Virus record (IMG/VR): IMGVR_UViG_3300037294_000266
Span: 62,001 to 126,000 of that record
Source of the DNA: a virus
DNA length: 64,000 nucleotides
Direction: 5' to 3' (one strand)
Shown: positions 2,908 through 62,167 of the stretch, piece after piece
Numbering within the stretch: the first letter of the stretch is position 1
Layout: every line of letters begins with the position of its first letter
Translations under genes and position numbers: made by a program
Notes under the pieces: model-generated
Seen by the model: the letters and a program-made list of their open reading frames with translations, nothing else
What the model was told of the DNA's origin: nothing
The model's database searches: none

Positions 2908-3414
2908 CTATTCAATACGGTTCTTGGATTTAGACACGCGATCAAGCCATCCCTTACGATAGTCTCTCTGACGCTTCTTAACGAGACGCGAAGCTTCGCG
3001 CGGATCGTTTTGGATAGCCGCCAATTCAGTCCGACTGATGGCAAATTCACCAAGTAGTTCGCAGATTTGATTCTTGTCGAAGAACTCCTGCGAGGAGTCG
3101 TCAGGTCTGGCGTTACACTGGTCTCTCGTCACGCCGGTGAATTCCAAGAGAGCTTCGATCAACGATGATCCAATACCTTGCCTGCGATATTCTTCCGCTA
3201 CAAAAACCTGGACAAGCTTAGTGCGCTTGGTAAATGCAGCACATCCAACATACTTACCATCCACCATAGCGCCTACGATCCGATGTCGCCCGATATTGCC
3301 GCCATCCCAGACATCATCCAACGCTGAATGAAGAGGGCTCATGCGCCCTCTATTCAACTTAGCGTCTAGACAACCTGCGGCGATGGCTACCTGATCATTG
3401 TAAAGGATTTCCAT
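2908..3414 (-). CDS. GNAT-family N-acetyltransferase
   Basis: A protein of 168 residues whose N-terminal half carries the GNAT core. A beta strand with VQVFVAEEYRRQGIGSSLIE (about residues 69-88) provides the acetyl-CoA pyrophosphate-binding R/Q-x-x-G-x-G/A signature, preceded by VGCAAF as the beta-4 strand. The C-terminal third is basic and unrecognised. The ATG at 3414 was preferred over the TTG one codon earlier because it follows AAGGAGCAGTTG. The substrate cannot be read from sequence; modification of a host protein, a small molecule or aminoacyl-tRNA are all possible. Confidence 0.82.
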   Translation of the reverse strand: MEILYNDQVAIAAGCLDAKLNRGRMSPLHSALDDVWDGGNIGRHRIVGAMVDGKYVGCAAFTKRTKLVQVFVAEEYRRQGIGSSLIEALLEFTGVTRDQCNARPDDSSQEFFDKNQICELLGEFAISRTELAAIQNDPREASRLVKKRQRDYRKGWLDRVSKSKNRIE

Positions 3415-3430
3415 CAACTGCTCCTTGCCG

Positions 3431-7208: not shown

Positions 7209-8321
7209 TTAGATGTTGTAGTCGGACATGTAATCGTCGATGATCGAGACGGCTTCCATGTAACGCTTGTTGAAGTTATCAGACTCGATGGTGTAGGTAT
7301 ACTCCGGAGTCTGGTTAGGATATTCGACCAGCATGTTCTGGAACAGATCCCAGGTCTTGGTGCGGTTCGGATTGCTGCGCATGCCATCGTCTACCCACGG
7401 CACATTGTCTCGCAGAATGATAACCAGGTCGTAGTTTTCAGACCGGGCAATTGCCGAGACCACTGGATTCGAACAACCTTCGTAGAGTCTGTGGTAGAAC
7501 TCGGTGATTAATGCGTTCGTGTCAACCAGGCAAATTCGATTGGCAGACCGCATTGCTTTCTCTTCCAGGTGCTTATGACGATACGCAATCAACGGGTAGT
7601 CAGAACTACGCAACGTAGCCTCACTGCCAGCCAACTCAGTCTCGACATAGACACGACCGTACTCCTCTACCCATGAAGTATTGAAGTATTTGGCCAGTGC
7701 TCTTACCAAGGTGGTCTTGCCTGTGGATTCCGTACCGAGGATCACCACCTTGCGAGTGTAATCGCGGCGTACAATGGACGGCAGATACTCCCAATTGGCG
7801 TAAAGGTTTTCACGTACCTTGGTTGCTGAGATAGGCATGGTAGTACGATGGGCATCAACCACTTCATGGCTGACGTACGGGAGATACTTCTTGTAGTTCT
7901 CATCGTAGTCAACTTCACTGCTGAAGATAGCAGCTGTCCTGGCCGTACGTTGGAAACTCACTTCTACCTTTCGATTCTCGAGACATATTGGTGATTTATC
8001 CGCAGCCAAGTGACCGTTAATCAATTTACCTAACATCCCAGCGTACGCTTCCCAGCCATTGGGATACTGGGGGATTTCAGATTCATCGATTACAGCGACT
8101 TCGATGTGCTTGTCTTGTGCGAAGGTCTGCTGTAACCACCGCAGCCGGTTCTTCAATGCCAGGACTTCACGATCACGAGGCCGCTGGGAATCTACCCAAC
8201 GCTGATCGTGACTGAGTACCACAATGACTTTCTTAGCCTTGGTAGCTGCCTGGTTAATGAGCATGATGTGCCCACGAGTCAGTGGGGCAAACTTACCCAC
8301 CACAAATCCTAAATCGTACAT
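7209..8321 (-). CDS. nadR: NadR-like bifunctional NMN adenylyltransferase / nicotinamide riboside kinase
   Basis: A protein of 370 residues. The N-terminal nucleotidyltransferase domain starts with GFVVGKFAPLTRGH (T-x-G-H version of the adenylyltransferase signature) and ends with the ISATKVRE motif near 170-177. The second domain opens with a P-loop, LGTESTGKTT (about 195-204), as in the riboside kinase part of NadR. The repressor HTH of enterobacterial NadR is absent. The predicted reactions are nicotinamide riboside to NMN to NAD+. The start at 8321 is preceded by AGAGGAATTAGC; the longer in-frame ORF would run through the upstream hairpin. It partners with pnuC. Confidence 0.9.
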   Translation of the reverse strand: MYDLGFVVGKFAPLTRGHIMLINQAATKAKKVIVVLSHDQRWVDSQRPRDREVLALKNRLRWLQQTFAQDKHIEVAVIDESEIPQYPNGWEAYAGMLGKLINGHLAADKSPICLENRKVEVSFQRTARTAAIFSSEVDYDENYKKYLPYVSHEVVDAHRTTMPISATKVRENLYANWEYLPSIVRRDYTRKVVILGTESTGKTTLVRALAKYFNTSWVEEYGRVYVETELAGSEATLRSSDYPLIAYRHKHLEEKAMRSANRICLVDTNALITEFYHRLYEGCSNPVVSAIARSENYDLVIILRDNVPWVDDGMRSNPNRTKTWDLFQNMLVEYPNQTPEYTYTIESDNFNKRYMEAVSIIDDYMSDYNI

Positions 8322-8338
8322 GCTAATTCCTCTGATGA

Positions 8339-8370
8339 CATAGAGCACAGGGACGTCCCTGTGCTCTATG
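8339..8370. terminator. 32-base perfect palindrome upstream of nadR
   Basis: Two 16-base arms (CATAGAGCACAGGGAC and its complement) abut with no loop bases, so the fold must open a few central pairs. It follows the stop at 8374 of the leftward gene and is followed by TATTTATAA on the plus strand. A terminator or RNA-end stabiliser is most likely. Confidence 0.7.
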
Positions 8371-8373
8371 TAT

Positions 8374-8850
8374 TTATAACGTAGTGACAGTGATCTTTCC
8401 AATGTCTAACGTCGCTTCAAAATCACGATGCCAGAGTTTATGGAATTCGGCTTTCTTAGAAATCATGGAGAGTAAGTAACATGCATACGCACGCTCTGCA
8501 CTTCCCATGTCACTTCGCTCAATTCCAAACATGCCGTTATTGCGAGTCACAAGAACCGTTCTAAGGAATGTATTCCGTAACTCAAACGTAAGCTTTATGA
8601 CGTCGTGTTCGAGGAGCAGCGGTGAAATGTCCTGACCGTCCAAGTGCTTCCACATGGAATTCAAGACAGGACCTGCTCGACACACCTTACCTTTATATCC
8701 ACCCAACCAGGTCGATGCAATGTGCAGTTCGCTTAATAACACCTGCTCTGCTAGACGCCCTGGACTGTAGATACACTGACCACTTGGATCAAACCCAATG
8801 CATTTGAACACTCGGTTAAGTCGCTTGAAGAATTCTTCACGATCGTCCAT
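8374..8850 (-). CDS. Hypothetical protein, 158 aa
   Basis: An unrecognised protein with a helical pattern and several Cys residues. The start at 8850 follows GAGGACCTGAC and lies one base beyond the upstream stop. Longer forms would overlap the upstream coding sequence. It ends an operon at the perfect palindrome. Confidence 0.7.
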   Translation of the reverse strand: MDDREEFFKRLNRVFKCIGFDPSGQCIYSPGRLAEQVLLSELHIASTWLGGYKGKVCRAGPVLNSMWKHLDGQDISPLLLEHDVIKLTFELRNTFLRTVLVTRNNGMFGIERSDMGSAERAYACYLLSMISKKAEFHKLWHRDFEATLDIGKITVTTL

Positions 8851-11242: not shown

Positions 11243-11539
11243 TCAGACAGCAATTGGAGCAGAGATAGCAGCGTCGTGGACGTAATCAACCAGTTCGAAG
11301 TCATCAATGGTGAAACCGAAAATATCCTTAACATCAGGATTGATCTTCATCGTTGGCAGTGCATGCGGTGTACGGGTCAGTTGCAGATCAACCTGTTCCA
11401 CGTGGTTGCTGTAAATGTGGATGTCGCCACCCGTCCAGATGAACTCGCCAGGAACCATGTTAGTAGCCTGAGCCACCATCATGACCAGTAATGCGTAGCT
11501 GGCGATGTTAAACGGAACTCCCAAGAAGACGTCACAACT
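11243..11539 (-). CDS. thyA: Thymidylate synthase, exon 2
   Basis: The C-terminal 98 residues of thymidylate synthase: [18 protein letters not shown], the [15 protein letters not shown] motif that holds dUMP, and the closing AAISAPIAV that caps the folate site. There is no start codon of its own; an ATG two codons into the open frame is the last base pair of intron sequence. It is joined to exon 1 (12626-13726) by splicing at CGT|AGT, giving the conserved QRSCDV. The total product is about 465 residues. Confidence 0.92.
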
Positions 11540-12625
11540 CATTATATTCAGTTAGGTTCGTTAATCCTAACCCGCCTCTCAGTAGCAGGCAGCTGCATGT
11601 CGCCATGCAGAGTAGACTATATCACACTCCACTTCCATGTGGAGTCCTCCCATTTCGAGTCCACTTGGACCCTACAATACTCGGTTCGCCATTATCATCA
11701 ATGTGGCGCCTTTCTTTAGTCGTTGGGCCTTACCGTAGTCCGTATCCACTGTATTTTGGGTTCTTGCTTTTGATCCTGTAATGGATCGTAGGAACTGGAA
11801 TTCCTAACTGCCGGCCTGCCTCGGCCAGCGAAGGATAGACAACGCCATCTATAACCACACTGAGTGTGTTTGGCGGTATATTTCCTTTACGGGCTTCTGA
11901 CAACTTTGCGCGAGTTTCGAGGGTGTGACTACGGCCAAAGAACGGGTTACTTTCACCAGTCCTTGCAGATGCTATTTCAGAAAGTCGTTTTCGAGTCTCT
12001 TCTGATCTAACACTACCTGTAGCGTAACTGTTTCCTCGTTGAATATCGGATAAACGAGCAATGACTTCAGCAGTATGACTGCGCCCAAACATTCCGTTTG
12101 ATTCGCCTTGCCTTCCGTACACCTGTACTCGTTCTTCTTCCGTCATTCTTTCCAGCCGTAATCTAAGAGAATCACCTATCCGAGAAATTATATCTTCTCG
12201 ATCAGGATGTCTCGTTAGATTATCGCCACCGATAGCCTGCGTACCGATATTGAGGCACTTCTTATTAAAAGTACCGCGACGGATTAAATGATCTTCGCAC
12301 TTGTAAGCTTCTTCCCTAGAATCGTACTCTTGGATAGATGCTCGCATTTCATGGCCAGCGTCAAATAGCTGCTGAAGTAACTGGTTATGATGAGTCCCAT
12401 TATAGAGCTCTCGCTCATGCCGGTCTAATCGCTTGTCCAGTTCACCAGTGCTACCGACGTAGTAACTTCCAGTATTCAAATCAGTGATTACGTATGTGTA
12501 GTACATTGTCGTCTCCTTTGGATAGGAAACGGACTACGGCTTTAGCAACGGATTGTCTCTTAGAGAGTTCCCCGTTTTAGAGAGGTTTTCAAGATAGCTT
12601 ACGCTATCAGGGCGCAGTTTGATTT
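11540..12625 (-). other. Group I intron in thyA, with internal endonuclease gene
   Basis: A 1086-base intron. The 5' exon ends in T (CAGCGT) and the intron ends in G, as group I splicing requires. The 5' part contains AAACGGGGAAC followed by CTCTCTAAGAGACAATCC, which as I remember it is nearly the P4/P5 region of the T4 td intron. The 3' part contains the R element AACGACTAAAG (complement of 11695-11705) and the S element GATATAGTCTA (near 11612-11622), which pair to form P7. The endonuclease ORF lies between the two halves of the core, as in td. Confidence 0.88.
11730..12506 (-). CDS. GIY-YIG homing endonuclease (I-TevI-like)
   Basis: A protein of 258 residues. The GIY-YIG nuclease domain lies at the N-terminus (TYVITDLNTGSYYVGST, then R25/R28/H29 and a distal Glu). 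Two NUMOD3-type repeats follow (ESNGMFGRSHT and ESNPFFGRSHT, about 135-205). The protein ends in a C-terminal helix-turn-helix DNA-binding segment (SLAEAGRQLGIPVPTIHYRI). The start follows AAAGGAGACGACA. It should cut intronless thyA alleles at the insertion site and drive intron homing. Confidence 0.93.
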   Translation of the reverse strand: MYYTYVITDLNTGSYYVGSTGELDKRLDRHERELYNGTHHNQLLQQLFDAGHEMRASIQEYDSREEAYKCEDHLIRRGTFNKKCLNIGTQAIGGDNLTRHPDREDIISRIGDSLRLRLERMTEEERVQVYGRQGESNGMFGRSHTAEVIARLSDIQRGNSYATGSVRSEETRKRLSEIASARTGESNPFFGRSHTLETRAKLSEARKGNIPPNTLSVVIDGVVYPSLAEAGRQLGIPVPTIHYRIKSKNPKYSGYGLR

Positions 12626-13726
12626 ACGCTGGTAGAGCTGACAATAGAGACGCCGTTCTGGAACACCCAGTTCATTCAAGACCAGTGTTGCATTGACAAT
12701 TCCGCCCTGAGGGTCTTCACCTACTACGAAGCCTTTCTTCTTAGCAAGTTCTTGACGTTCTTCAAACGACAACGGAGCCGTGTAGAACTGGAACAGGCAG
12801 TGACATGGCGGTAAAGCCATCTGATCCACTTCAGCAGGGTTCCAGGCACTGACGATCAACCGCCGGCTGTCTGGGTTGTTCTTGAGCTGATTGATCAAGT
12901 TGGCGATCTGATCAATGGCCGGATTGATAACTTTAGCCACCCGCCGTTCTTTTGGAACGCCAAGACGATCGAAGGTTTCCGATAGGTTCTTCAACGCCTC
13001 GTTGCGCTCAGGACCGCTTGGTTTGACATACGCCTTACCAAGGAGTTCGAAGTAATCGTCGTGCTGATTGGCTTCGACACAGCGTTCGTAGATCGACAGG
13101 TTTTCACCCAACTTCACCATCTGAGGGTTTGGCCAAGAGCGCCACTGACTACCGTAGACAGGACCGAGTTCACCAGCGATCAGTTTCTTAGTTTCGATGC
13201 CGTAGAACTCAGCAATGTGCTTGTACGCATATGCCTGAGCCTGGGGTTCAGTCTCGTGATTGTCGAAGGCTTCTTTCTTACAGCGATTGTAGAAGTCCTC
13301 AGTCACAAGGAACAGTACGGCAGGATTGCTCTCAGGCCCTAGCATCTCAAATGAGATGTCGACTGGTTGATCGGCATGTTCGATTCCAGCCAGCCGGTCG
13401 GCTTTGAAGCGCTTTTTGATGCCGGTATGAAGTTCGGAAATGGTCAGATCTTGCCATTCTTCCGTACCTTCTTTGATCCACTCGTCCCAGATGGAGACGC
13501 CGTTTTCCTTCAGGTAACGGATGTTGGTCTCACCTTTAAGGAACCACAGGAGTTCGTGGATGATGGACTTCAGGTGGGTCTTCTTGGTCGTAACCAATGG
13601 AAATCCGTCAGACAGATCAAAACGCATCTGGTGACCGAAGATGGAGTACGTCCCTGTCCCGGTTCGGTCTTGCTTATACCTGCCGGTTTCACGGATGATG
13701 CGGAGGAGATCAAGATACTGTTTCAT
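12626..13726 (-). CDS. thyA: Thymidylate synthase, exon 1
   Basis: The first 367 residues of ThyA; the open frame runs on to 12599 through 9 intron codons. Conserved blocks are present: the DRTGTGTYSIFGHQMRF substrate loop, KSIIHELLWFLKGETNI, GPVYGSQWRSWP, PDSRRLIVSAWNP and the catalytic Cys in LPPCHCLFQFY. Compared with the 264-residue E. coli enzyme there are three extra blocks, roughly 105 residues after WDEW, 75 after SWPNP and 40 after CLFQFY. They are lineage-specific and of unknown role. The gene makes dTMP and pairs with the Tmk gene at 22673. Confidence 0.93.
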
Positions 13727-13735
13727 GCTGTTTCC

Positions 13736-13972
13736 TTATTTGAAGAACACTTGGCATGAACGCCCGGTGAACTTGGCTTCGGTAAGGTAAATTTCATTAC
13801 CATTAACTTGCTTGGTCAAGACACGGCAAGCAGACGTTTCCATTACAACGGTGGGGTTATCAGGCACAGTCGTGACGCGTGTATCTACCACTTGTTTGTG
13901 CTGCATGAACGCGAAGAAAAGAGCCAGTACAACGACGATGACGATTAAGGCTGCCGTGACAACTGTTTTCAT
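13736..13972 (-). CDS. Small membrane-anchored protein, 78 aa
   Basis: An N-terminal hydrophobic helix (TAALIVIVVVLALFFAFM) is followed by a polar domain of about 50 residues with two Cys that could form a disulfide outside the membrane. The start follows GAGGAGACATC. It lies nine bases upstream of thyA exon 1 and is coupled to the gene before it. Function unknown. Confidence 0.68.
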   Translation of the reverse strand: MKTVVTAALIVIVVVLALFFAFMQHKQVVDTRVTTVPDNPTVVMETSACRVLTKQVNGNEIYLTEAKFTGRSCQVFFK

Positions 13973-14316
13973 GATGTCTCCTCAACTGCACTTGGGTTGA
14001 AAGAGATGACGCCGGTAGGGCCAGCAATGTCACGCAGGTTCATGTACGTATCGACACTGAGCTGCACCAGAATGACATCGGTCAAGAACACGTTGCCGGT
14101 ATTCATCAGGGAGGTGACGTTGTCCTCAATCAGTCCATTGACTAAACGAGGTATTTTCTCGCCCAGCAGACCAACATCCTCACGGATAACATCAATCACC
14201 TCAGCTGAGATACGGATGAAATTCCAGAGTGATTTGAGATCACGACCGGTCTGAGTATCGTAATGGGCGATGATCTCATTAGCCTTAATCTTGTTAACTG
14301 CGATGATAACCTGCAT
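13969..14316 (-). CDS. Hypothetical protein, 115 aa
   Basis: An unrecognised helical protein. The ATG at 14316 overlaps the upstream stop (TGATG) after GGAGAACTT; the TTG one codon earlier is less likely. Its own end overlaps the membrane-protein start by four bases, so four genes here form a coupled chain. Confidence 0.66.
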   Translation of the reverse strand: MQVIIAVNKIKANEIIAHYDTQTGRDLKSLWNFIRISAEVIDVIREDVGLLGEKIPRLVNGLIEDNVTSLMNTGNVFLTDVILVQLSVDTYMNLRDIAGPTGVISFNPSAVEETS

Positions 14317-14660
14317 CAAAGTTCTCCAGGTTCAAGATGATCGTCGCCGGTACTTTTCTCAGCACTGCGTCCGCTTGAATTGAGTCTGAAACGCTCGGCT
14401 GCTCCAGAGTCAATGAACTCCTTGTACTCGACCAGTTCTTTATAGCTGTTCTTCAAACCTTCCAGCCCACAGTAAATGATTTCACGGTGGCCTGAACCAA
14501 ATCCGGATTCGGAAGCACACCAGTCATCATCATTGTGTTTAACACCCCGGCCGATATCGGCAAACGAGACAGTCTTCCAGAGACCTCGTCCCGTTTCAAT
14601 AGCCAGGGCTGTAATGGCCGTTTTGAGTTCATCGACTGTTTCAGGGACTTTGCTCTCCAT
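14316..14660 (-). CDS. Hypothetical protein, 114 aa
   Basis: An unrecognised protein with one Trp-Cys-rich segment (DDDWCASESGFGSGHREI). Two adjacent ATG codons (14663, 14660) follow GGAGGG; the second has better spacing. It starts on the stop codon of the TacA-like gene, so the two are translationally coupled. Confidence 0.66.
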   Translation of the reverse strand: MESKVPETVDELKTAITALAIETGRGLWKTVSFADIGRGVKHNDDDWCASESGFGSGHREIIYCGLEGLKNSYKELVEYKEFIDSGAAERFRLNSSGRSAEKSTGDDHLEPGEL

Positions 14661-15088
14661 CATTCCCTCCAACGTGGCTTTCGAGCCAGTAAATCAATGA
14701 GCGCTTGATTCGGCTTGGCATCTGCATTATCAGTAAGAGCGGTAAGTCGATCAAACGCCTCGGGAGACAATTCGATCCGTTCGGCACGGATACTGAACAG
14801 AGTTAATTTATCCTCACGTTCTACTTCACGCTTCAGCAGCCGAGAAGCAATGTCACGCGCTTCCTTAGGAATGCCCACGGTATCTGGACGTTCGCCGGTT
14901 TGCCACGCTTCCTGATCGAGGAGATTTGGAGACTCTTGATGATTGTCGTACAGTACCGCCAGCATTGTATAAATACCGGTCGTAGCACGATCTTTAAGAA
15001 GGTCTTCAGGGAGGATGTACTGATCATCAACACCTTCAGATTTCAACTTGTTCTTGTACAATTGATACAGTTCAGAGAAATCACTCAT
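14660..15088 (-). CDS. Protein ending in a TacA-like (DUF1778) antitoxin segment
   Basis: A protein of 142 residues. The last 40 residues (RIELSPEAFDRLTALTDN, then NQALIDLLARKPRW) closely resemble the toxin-neutralising tail of TacA-type antitoxins, which wraps GNAT toxins such as TacT; the LLARKPxW ending is the most telling part. The N-terminal 100 residues are helical and charged, and I see no clear ribbon-helix-helix domain. There is no toxin gene adjacent. The ATG at 15088 overlaps the upstream stop; longer forms are rejected. A phage inhibitor of host TacT-like toxins is an inference. Confidence 0.6.
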   Translation of the reverse strand: MSDFSELYQLYKNKLKSEGVDDQYILPEDLLKDRATTGIYTMLAVLYDNHQESPNLLDQEAWQTGERPDTVGIPKEARDIASRLLKREVEREDKLTLFSIRAERIELSPEAFDRLTALTDNADAKPNQALIDLLARKPRWRE

Positions 15089-15309
15089 GCTACACCCCAC
15101 ATTTGCATCACACGTTCTACCAGTAAGTACATGGCATACGGCGGCATGATAACGGCAAACAGACACGACCAGAAACCCTTAGCCAGTACAATACCAGCGA
15201 GCCACCAGACGACAAAGATGAACAAGAATAACCCACCACCGCCAGTGACTCGTTCTACCCGGATGATGTTGGTGGTCTTGGCTGGAGCTTTGTTAGTTTC
15301 TTCGGTCAT
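15085..15309 (-). CDS. Small membrane protein, 74 aa
   Basis: A polar Thr/Lys-rich N-terminus, a Gly-rich turn, then two hydrophobic segments (LFLFIFVVWWLAGIVLA and FAVIMPPYAMYLLV). The start is uncertain: ATG 15309 or an in-frame GTG at 15318. Its stop overlaps the TacA-like gene start. Inner-membrane location is predicted; function unknown. Confidence 0.62.
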   Translation of the reverse strand: MTEETNKAPAKTTNIIRVERVTGGGGLFLFIFVVWWLAGIVLAKGFWSCLFAVIMPPYAMYLLVERVMQMWGVA

Positions 15310-15318
15310 GTCACTCAC

Positions 15319-61558: not shown

Positions 61559-62167
61559 CTAATCCATGAGGTCGAGACCTACCAGCGCCATTGGTAAGTC
61601 GGCATTCTTGGTTACGACCACCTTTGCCGTCTTGTTAACGTATTTGATAGATTCTACGTCACCGCCGGACAGGGGGTCTAGCTGCAAGACAGTTGACATT
61701 ACCTGTGTCAGACTGATCTTAGGGAATATAGTCATGACCGCTTTAGCAAACTTACTGCCAGTGCCTGTCATGAAAGGGAACTCTTCAATCTTACTGACAC
61801 GGGTGTTGTGCTCAGAGAGATTGATCGAATAGCTACCTGCCTCTGTGATAACAATCACATTCACTGTCTTATCGAATGACAGCGGCATTAGTTTCTGTGC
61901 ATCTGTCATGATTTCAACAGGACACTTCCCAGATTCGATCATGGCGTATACGCGACGCGATTGAGCTTTGTTGCCAGCAGCAGTCATGGCAATGATCTTA
62001 CTGCCTTTGTAGCTGCATGGTTTTTCAGGAACGTGGATCTTCGATGACGCTGTTACCTCTCGCACGTTCGTGCCAGAACAATCCGCGCATTTGTGAGAAG
62101 CCTTCAAATCCAACGAAGCCTGACCGTCTGTGATCAACATGTCTTTTGTTAGAATAACTGTGGTCAT
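61559..62167 (-). CDS. Proteasome/HslV-like Ntn hydrolase, phage type
   Basis: The N-terminus M-TTVILTKDMLITDGQAS would expose Thr2 as nucleophile after Met removal. It is followed by KIHV, a Gly-rich TAAGN turn and a late GTGSKFAKAVM and QLDPLSGGDVESI, all matching the order in proteasome-beta-like proteins of phages. An inserted CADC segment with two Cys near 27-30 may bind metal. Function in phages is unknown; a peptidase or amidase is likely. Confidence 0.68.
   Translation of the reverse strand: MTTVILTKDMLITDGQASLDLKASHKCADCSGTNVREVTASSKIHVPEKPCSYKGSKIIAMTAAGNKAQSRRVYAMIESGKCPVEIMTDAQKLMPLSFDKTVNVIVITEAGSYSINLSEHNTRVSKIEEFPFMTGTGSKFAKAVMTIFPKISLTQVMSTVLQLDPLSGGDVESIKYVNKTAKVVVTKNADLPMALVGLDLMD

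Follow-up and report, generated by a model that had tools for sequence, protein, structure and literature searches.

A phage protein with a predicted TacA-type antitoxin tail and no DNA-binding half

A 64,000-nt stretch of DNA from a giant virus of bacteria (the window; positions 62,001–126,000 of the 266,646-bp IMG/VR virus record IMGVR_UViG_3300037294_000266) carries at 14660–15088 a gene for a protein of 142 residues. This accessory protein was predicted to bear, on an unrelated N-terminal body, a detached neutralising segment of the TacA/DUF1778 antitoxins, by which it would inhibit a GNAT toxin of the host. We put the probability of this reading at roughly 0.6. A phage antitoxin mimic, as proposed in a first-pass annotation of the window, was the best-supported function for the gene and is partly supported by the comparisons described here.

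The C-terminal end of the window protein

The sole Pfam family found for the window protein was PF08681 (TacA1), with an E value of 0.013 and a score of 15.9 bits. The alignment covered profile positions 43–77 of 80 only, which are the tail part of the model. The isolated tail scored 18.5 bits against TacA1, and a TacA1 search of the whole phage record retrieved the window protein as its single match (E = 0.0026). For the first-pass annotation, the lack of a DUF1778 match in a profile search would have refuted its reading; the search was run and a match was found, though below the curated Pfam cut-off.

An antitoxin-tail profile was built from 39 tails (genome copies found with Pfam, PDB chains and a plasmid antitoxin), gathered without the window. 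On this profile the window protein scored 13.1 bits, the same level as a Pantoea antitoxin bearing the ribbon-helix-helix (RHH) DNA-binding half (12.6 bits), and the next of 755 open reading frames (ORFs) of the window scored 2.8. A profile of eight phage and plasmid tails, with the window protein left out, gave 35.5 bits for the window protein, 4.3 for the next ORF and 10.2 for the best of 50,000 shuffles; the 35.5-bit figure is partly non-blind, as RB16 was first found via a weak match to the window protein (E = 4), and the blind figures are the 13.1 bits and the Pfam scores. An earlier profile, on which the window protein scored 36 bits, was dropped and excluded from later tests, since the window's own motif had served to retrieve one of its members.

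No RHH was found in the window protein: a profile of the RHH half gave −4.6 bits, against 36–60 bits for RHH-bearing controls. A C-terminal neutralising segment was recognised, by sequence, with the two profiles of independent tails. Since these profiles score the window protein and the RHH-half profile gives nothing, it is well supported that the protein ends in a TacA-type tail (residues about 103–141) and that the RHH is absent. Both the likeness of the last 40 residues to a DUF1778/TacA tail and the missing RHH half had been described in the first-pass annotation, and both were borne out. The LLARKPRW end was comparable to LLARKPSWEE in RHH-bearing antitoxins (L062–L064). A single-sequence search of the PDB with the whole window protein or with its tail gave nothing relevant.

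A likeness by chance, of an amphipathic, Pro/Arg-rich end of 40 residues, was considered very improbable. By itself the Pfam match was below threshold, in a window of about a hundred genes, but shuffles and all other ORFs scored far lower on the window-free profiles, and the same order of elements was seen in several independent phage proteins.

Orphan tails on phage and plasmid proteins

RHH-less TacA-type tails were found on roughly ten otherwise unrelated proteins of phages and conjugative plasmids, which makes a recurrent module of what the first-pass annotation had treated as a single oddity. A search of phages with the window protein gave a single marginal match (E = 4), RB16p091. This protein of 98 residues, from T4-like phages of the RB16/RB43/KP15 type, carried a clean C-terminal TacA tail (TacA1 positions 48–77, E = 7.8e-4). 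Further tail proteins were collected from RB16p091, a synthetic consensus and a degenerate DNA pattern. RHH-less tails were seen on proteins of Providencia and Moellerella plasmids, on a 62-residue protein of Yersinia phage GN1 that is tail for the most part, in Bradyrhizobium phage BDU-MI-1 and Shewanella jumbo phage SXP01 (with the tail at the N-terminus), in cyanophages S-SZBM1/S-PM2 and likewise in IMG/VR sequences L024, L025 and L028. A tblastn search of plasmids with just the window tail as query gave no match. The LLARKPxW pattern in IMG/VR gave three copies of one RHH-bearing antitoxin and no second tail-only case with the exact ending, and NCBIfam had no match to any tail protein tested.

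When the tails were masked, the N-terminal parts gave no mutual matches except one weak match of 20 residues. The tailed L028 was 44% identical over its N-terminal part to S-SZBM1 gp103, the end of which is without a tail. The Providencia and Moellerella plasmid proteins had the first ~95 residues and the C-terminal tail in common, and the 62 residues between were missing in one. In sequence terms the tail is a separable module. On the Providencia plasmid (L007:2006–3592) the RHH-less tail protein stood immediately upstream of a complete DUF1778–GNAT pair, which was missing from the otherwise similar stretch of the Moellerella plasmid.

A profile of 11 phage and plasmid tails, without the window protein and without any RHH-bearing antitoxin, was run against all PDB chains. 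The nine best matches (E 1.5e-5 to 0.37) all belonged to the DUF1778/AtaR/KacA/TacA group, and those after them were unrelated chains with E above 1. Three of the nine were isolated peptides: 6gtq_C (46 aa), 7ak9_C (36 aa; named "ABC transporter" in the PDB, yet also retrieved by an AtaR query) and 7ak8_G ("TacA1 antitoxin peptide"). Going by chain names and lengths, we take such crystal entries of a toxin with an isolated tail peptide to mean that the tail suffices for binding. On RHH-bearing antitoxins the 11-tail profile matched at the tails (up to 33 bits) and never on the RHH halves. As judged by profile, the tail module is the toxin-binding end of the antitoxin.

In 84,980 genomes, 29 matches were found with a degenerate DNA pattern that describes the core of the tail. 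The matches with full context were seven DUF1778 antitoxins, two with a different RHH and one RHH-less solitary ORF of Sphingomonas; the remaining ones look like chance. Bacterial antitoxins with a TacA-type tail and an RHH unlike that of DUF1778 were seen at L042/L081 and L045. At L042/L081 (L042 being the example read in context) a GNAT gene follows the antitoxin, and the RHH has apparently been swapped while the tail was kept.

The tail might instead be a general protein-protein interaction motif, common to TacA antitoxins and phage proteins, which the phage uses for other ends; it might bring in a host acetyltransferase, for instance, or hold a complex together. In line with such a use, the segment of ST22 and of the Serratia and Erwinia jumbo phages is embedded in larger proteins, with P-loop or DUF6378 contexts, and is not a free end. 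This explanation was nevertheless judged unlikely, given that cellular full-context matches of the tail pattern were almost only RHH antitoxins and that the other-RHH example read in context still adjoins a GNAT gene.

Among 369 class-mates of Escherichia albertii, PF08681 was matched in 98 genomes, and tail-only matches were rare. Solitary tail-only ORFs on chromosomes were found in Sphingomonas (L079 and L082) and at L114 and L115. No GNAT adjoined the tail at any of these four, all of which were opened, and the L082 ORF adjoins an integrase. Since solitary tails without a GNAT neighbour occur on bacterial chromosomes, orphan tails are found outside phages too. These chromosomal ORFs are possibly anti-addiction genes or remnants.

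Comparison of RB16 with the Klebsiella-phage forms gave a nonsynonymous divergence (dN) of about 0.21 for the tail with saturated synonymous divergence (dS), so the RB16-type tail is, by these rates, under purifying selection. This bears on the idea that the window tail is a functionless remnant from the chance fusion of a fragment of a captured antitoxin gene. The solitary chromosomal ORFs, one near an integrase, agree with that idea, and the window gene lacks relatives that would reveal constraint. We hold it to be improbable, however, since the module is found again and again, with its terminal motif intact, on many unrelated backbones, the RB16-type tail has been kept at saturated dS, and the window gene lies within a tightly packed, overlapping gene run.

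GNAT genes, candidate function and genomic setting

The first-pass annotation had found no toxin next to the tail gene. This held: no GNAT adjoined the gene, its neighbours had no Pfam match, and the one GNAT detected in the 266-kb record (2908–3417), which the first-pass annotation had not mentioned, was 11.2 kb away. That GNAT had no TacT-type match in the PDB, and its best named relatives were generic RimI-like proteins. Its match to the GNAT core was short, and its C-terminal half was unusual. The phage was thus found to carry an antitoxin-like tail with no adjacent toxin and no recognised TacT-like GNAT.

If the tail bound and controlled the phage's own GNAT, the two would form a split pair internal to the phage and not a means of counter-defence. 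The phage does have one GNAT, and the tail-carrying jumbo phages Haymo, Totoro, SXP01 and Mortimer also encode GNATs. Of ten complete records of phages with the tail, however, six (RB16, VAC66, GN1, BDU-MI-1, ST22 and S-SZBM1) had no PF13508 GNAT, so the tail's partner would not generally be phage-borne. With the window GNAT lacking a TacT-type relative and its gene 11 kb from the tail gene, such a pair has little probability.

The antitoxin of a type II GNAT module has two tasks: its tail binds and inactivates the toxin, and its RHH represses the operon (PMC10135005; PMC9177977). The tail of the window protein would form two short helices, with a Pro-containing linker between them, and lie along a host GNAT toxin of the TacT/AtaT/KacT type, in the pose taken by the tail of the cognate antitoxin. 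The bound toxin would be kept from acetylating aminoacyl-tRNA during infection. Because the RHH is missing, binding to a toxin–antitoxin (TA) operator is not expected; neutralisation would occur without repression, outside the autoregulatory circuit, and autoregulation by the window protein is unlikely. Binding and inhibition of a host toxin by the tail protein are what we infer from sequence comparison, and the mechanism is plausible and better supported than the first-pass annotation could know. More widely, we see an even chance that a portable module against GNAT toxins is common to phages and conjugative plasmids, in which an RHH-free TacA tail has repeatedly been grafted onto unrelated accessory proteins to give non-autoregulating inhibitors.

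Several observations weigh against inhibition of a host GNAT toxin by the window protein. Over the TacA1 model it failed the curated Pfam cut-off for PF08681 (15.9 and 18.5 bits, cut-off 21 bits); as both this cut-off and the RHH fail, the protein is not a member of the strict DUF1778 family, although it would act in the manner of a TacA neutralising domain. The score of 13.1 bits on the 39-tail profile is modest and was beaten by 2 of 50,000 shuffles. The linker of the window tail (DNADAKPN) has one extra residue and is without the NPP motif. In Serratia Moabite-type phages, Erwinia Mortimer and Enterobacter ST22 the segment is internal to the protein and its score is low. The selection estimate concerns RB16-type tails only, the window protein being without homologues. 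Lastly, known GNAT antitoxins mostly neutralise only the cognate toxin, so a distant tail need not act on a given toxin: Salmonella TacA antitoxins act on their own toxins only, and Klebsiella KacA3 also alleviates KacT2 (PMC9431474).

Over the window region the record is kin to Pseudomonas phage pPa_SNUABM_DT01 (265,520 bp). Genes upstream of the tail-gene interval were syntenic in that phage (29–69% identity), and the interval itself was occupied by other small genes; it is variable and not common to both phages. Because of this replacement, gene 14660–15088 is an accessory gene. Its ATG and the stop of the preceding (upstream) gene overlap (ATGA), and the run of five small genes to which it belongs lies directly upstream of, and leads into, the thymidylate synthase gene (Table 1).

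Full-length relatives of the 142-aa protein were found neither in annotated phages nor in IMG/VR or the 84,980 genomes, and within its own genome the gene was the sole match to its protein. The N-terminal part had no match in Pfam, PHROG or NCBIfam and no detectable homologue. An AlphaFold2 (AF2) single-sequence model, with a mean predicted local distance difference test score (pLDDT) of 45 and useful for helix positions only, placed helices of low confidence in the N-terminal part at residues 3–17, 28–33, 35–48, 59–63 and 75–90.

Table 1. Positions in the window of the tail gene, its parts and related features
Feature	Position	Strand	Description and basis
Whole gene	14660..15088	(-)	142 aa; ATG at 15088, stop 14660-14662; ORF listing and translation
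N-terminal part, residues 1-102	14783..15088	(-)	predicted helical, not RHH
TacA/DUF1778-type tail, residues 103-142	14663..14782	(-)	ERIELSPEAFDRLTALTDNADAKPNQALIDLLARKPRWRE; Pfam TacA1 and tail profiles
Predicted first tail helix, residues 109-120	14729..14764	(-)	low-confidence AF2 model; aligns with SxxxFxxxLxxxLD of antitoxins
Terminal motif LLARKPRW, residues 133-140	14669..14692	(-)	compare LLARKPQWD (7zg6 DUF1778 chain)
Packed run of five small genes including the tail gene	13736..15318	(-)	ORF overlaps and synteny comparison
GNAT-fold protein of the phage	2908..3417	(-)	169 aa; PF00583/PF13508, E about 1e-9

Other features of the window were also noted. Thymidylate synthase was split across 11243–13726 (minus strand), with PF00303 positions 1–169 in the ORF 12599–13726 and 169–266 in the ORF 11243–11542. 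Between the halves stood a GIY-YIG/NUMOD3 endonuclease with an I-TevI DNA-binding domain (11730–12506), as in the T4 td intron; no Rfam intron family reached threshold at the split gene. The gene at 7209–8402 (minus strand) encodes cytidylyltransferase-like and AAA_28 domains in a NadR-like arrangement.

Comparison with known systems

GNAT toxins form a large class among TA systems. A recurring, toxin-free TacA tail in phages would, if true, be evidence that phages meet GNAT toxins often enough to counter them. RB16, S-PM2 and GN1 are ready candidates in laboratory-tractable phages, and a scan with the tail exposes a domain boundary overlooked by whole-protein annotation.

For Klebsiella phages VAC13 and VAC66, the RB16-type protein has been listed as a "DUF1778 domain-containing protein" (E = 3.1e-5; PMC10100988), and in cyanophage S-CREM1 a TacA was predicted (ORF106), for which a role in countering host TA was suggested (PMC9964418). 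As these precede the present case, the idea of a single instance is not wholly new. The S-SZBM1 protein also carries a DUF1778 label in GenBank. In the open-access papers searched, no statement was found of the tail-only presence, of its recurrence on unrelated backbones or of any assay of the tail, and the literature searched gave no demonstrated link between GNAT toxins and phage defence.

The window protein shares with the TacA/AtaR/KacA antitoxins (PF08681) the helix, the Pro-containing linker, the second helix and an end of the LLARKPxW type, as in 7zg6. It differs in having no RHH, no GNAT next door, an unrelated body of 102 residues and a linker longer by one residue. The RB16/RB43/KP15-type protein (RB16p091; VAC66 QYC51228.1) is likewise a small protein with a free-standing C-terminal TacA-type tail and neither toxin nor RHH, but its N-terminal part is unrelated, Cys-rich and zinc-ribbon-like, its gene is near the DNA ligase gene gp30, and it is conserved across many Pseudotevenvirus and Slopekvirus genomes. 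The "DUF1778" protein of cyanophages S-PM2 and S-SZBM1 is also TacA-like in its tail only and belongs to lytic phages, with another N-terminal domain. For S-CREM1 ORF106 the likeness to the window protein is by TacA prediction.

Phage antitoxin mimics have precedents, namely AdfB of ICP1 against DarT (PMC11481870) and Dmd of T4 (cited in PMC10100988). Like these two, for which it has been demonstrated, the window protein would be a phage protein that replaces a host antitoxin. Dmd and AdfB act on RnlA/LsoA and DarT, respectively, whereas the predicted target of the window protein is a GNAT toxin, and it would meet that target with a short tail and not with a whole antitoxin.
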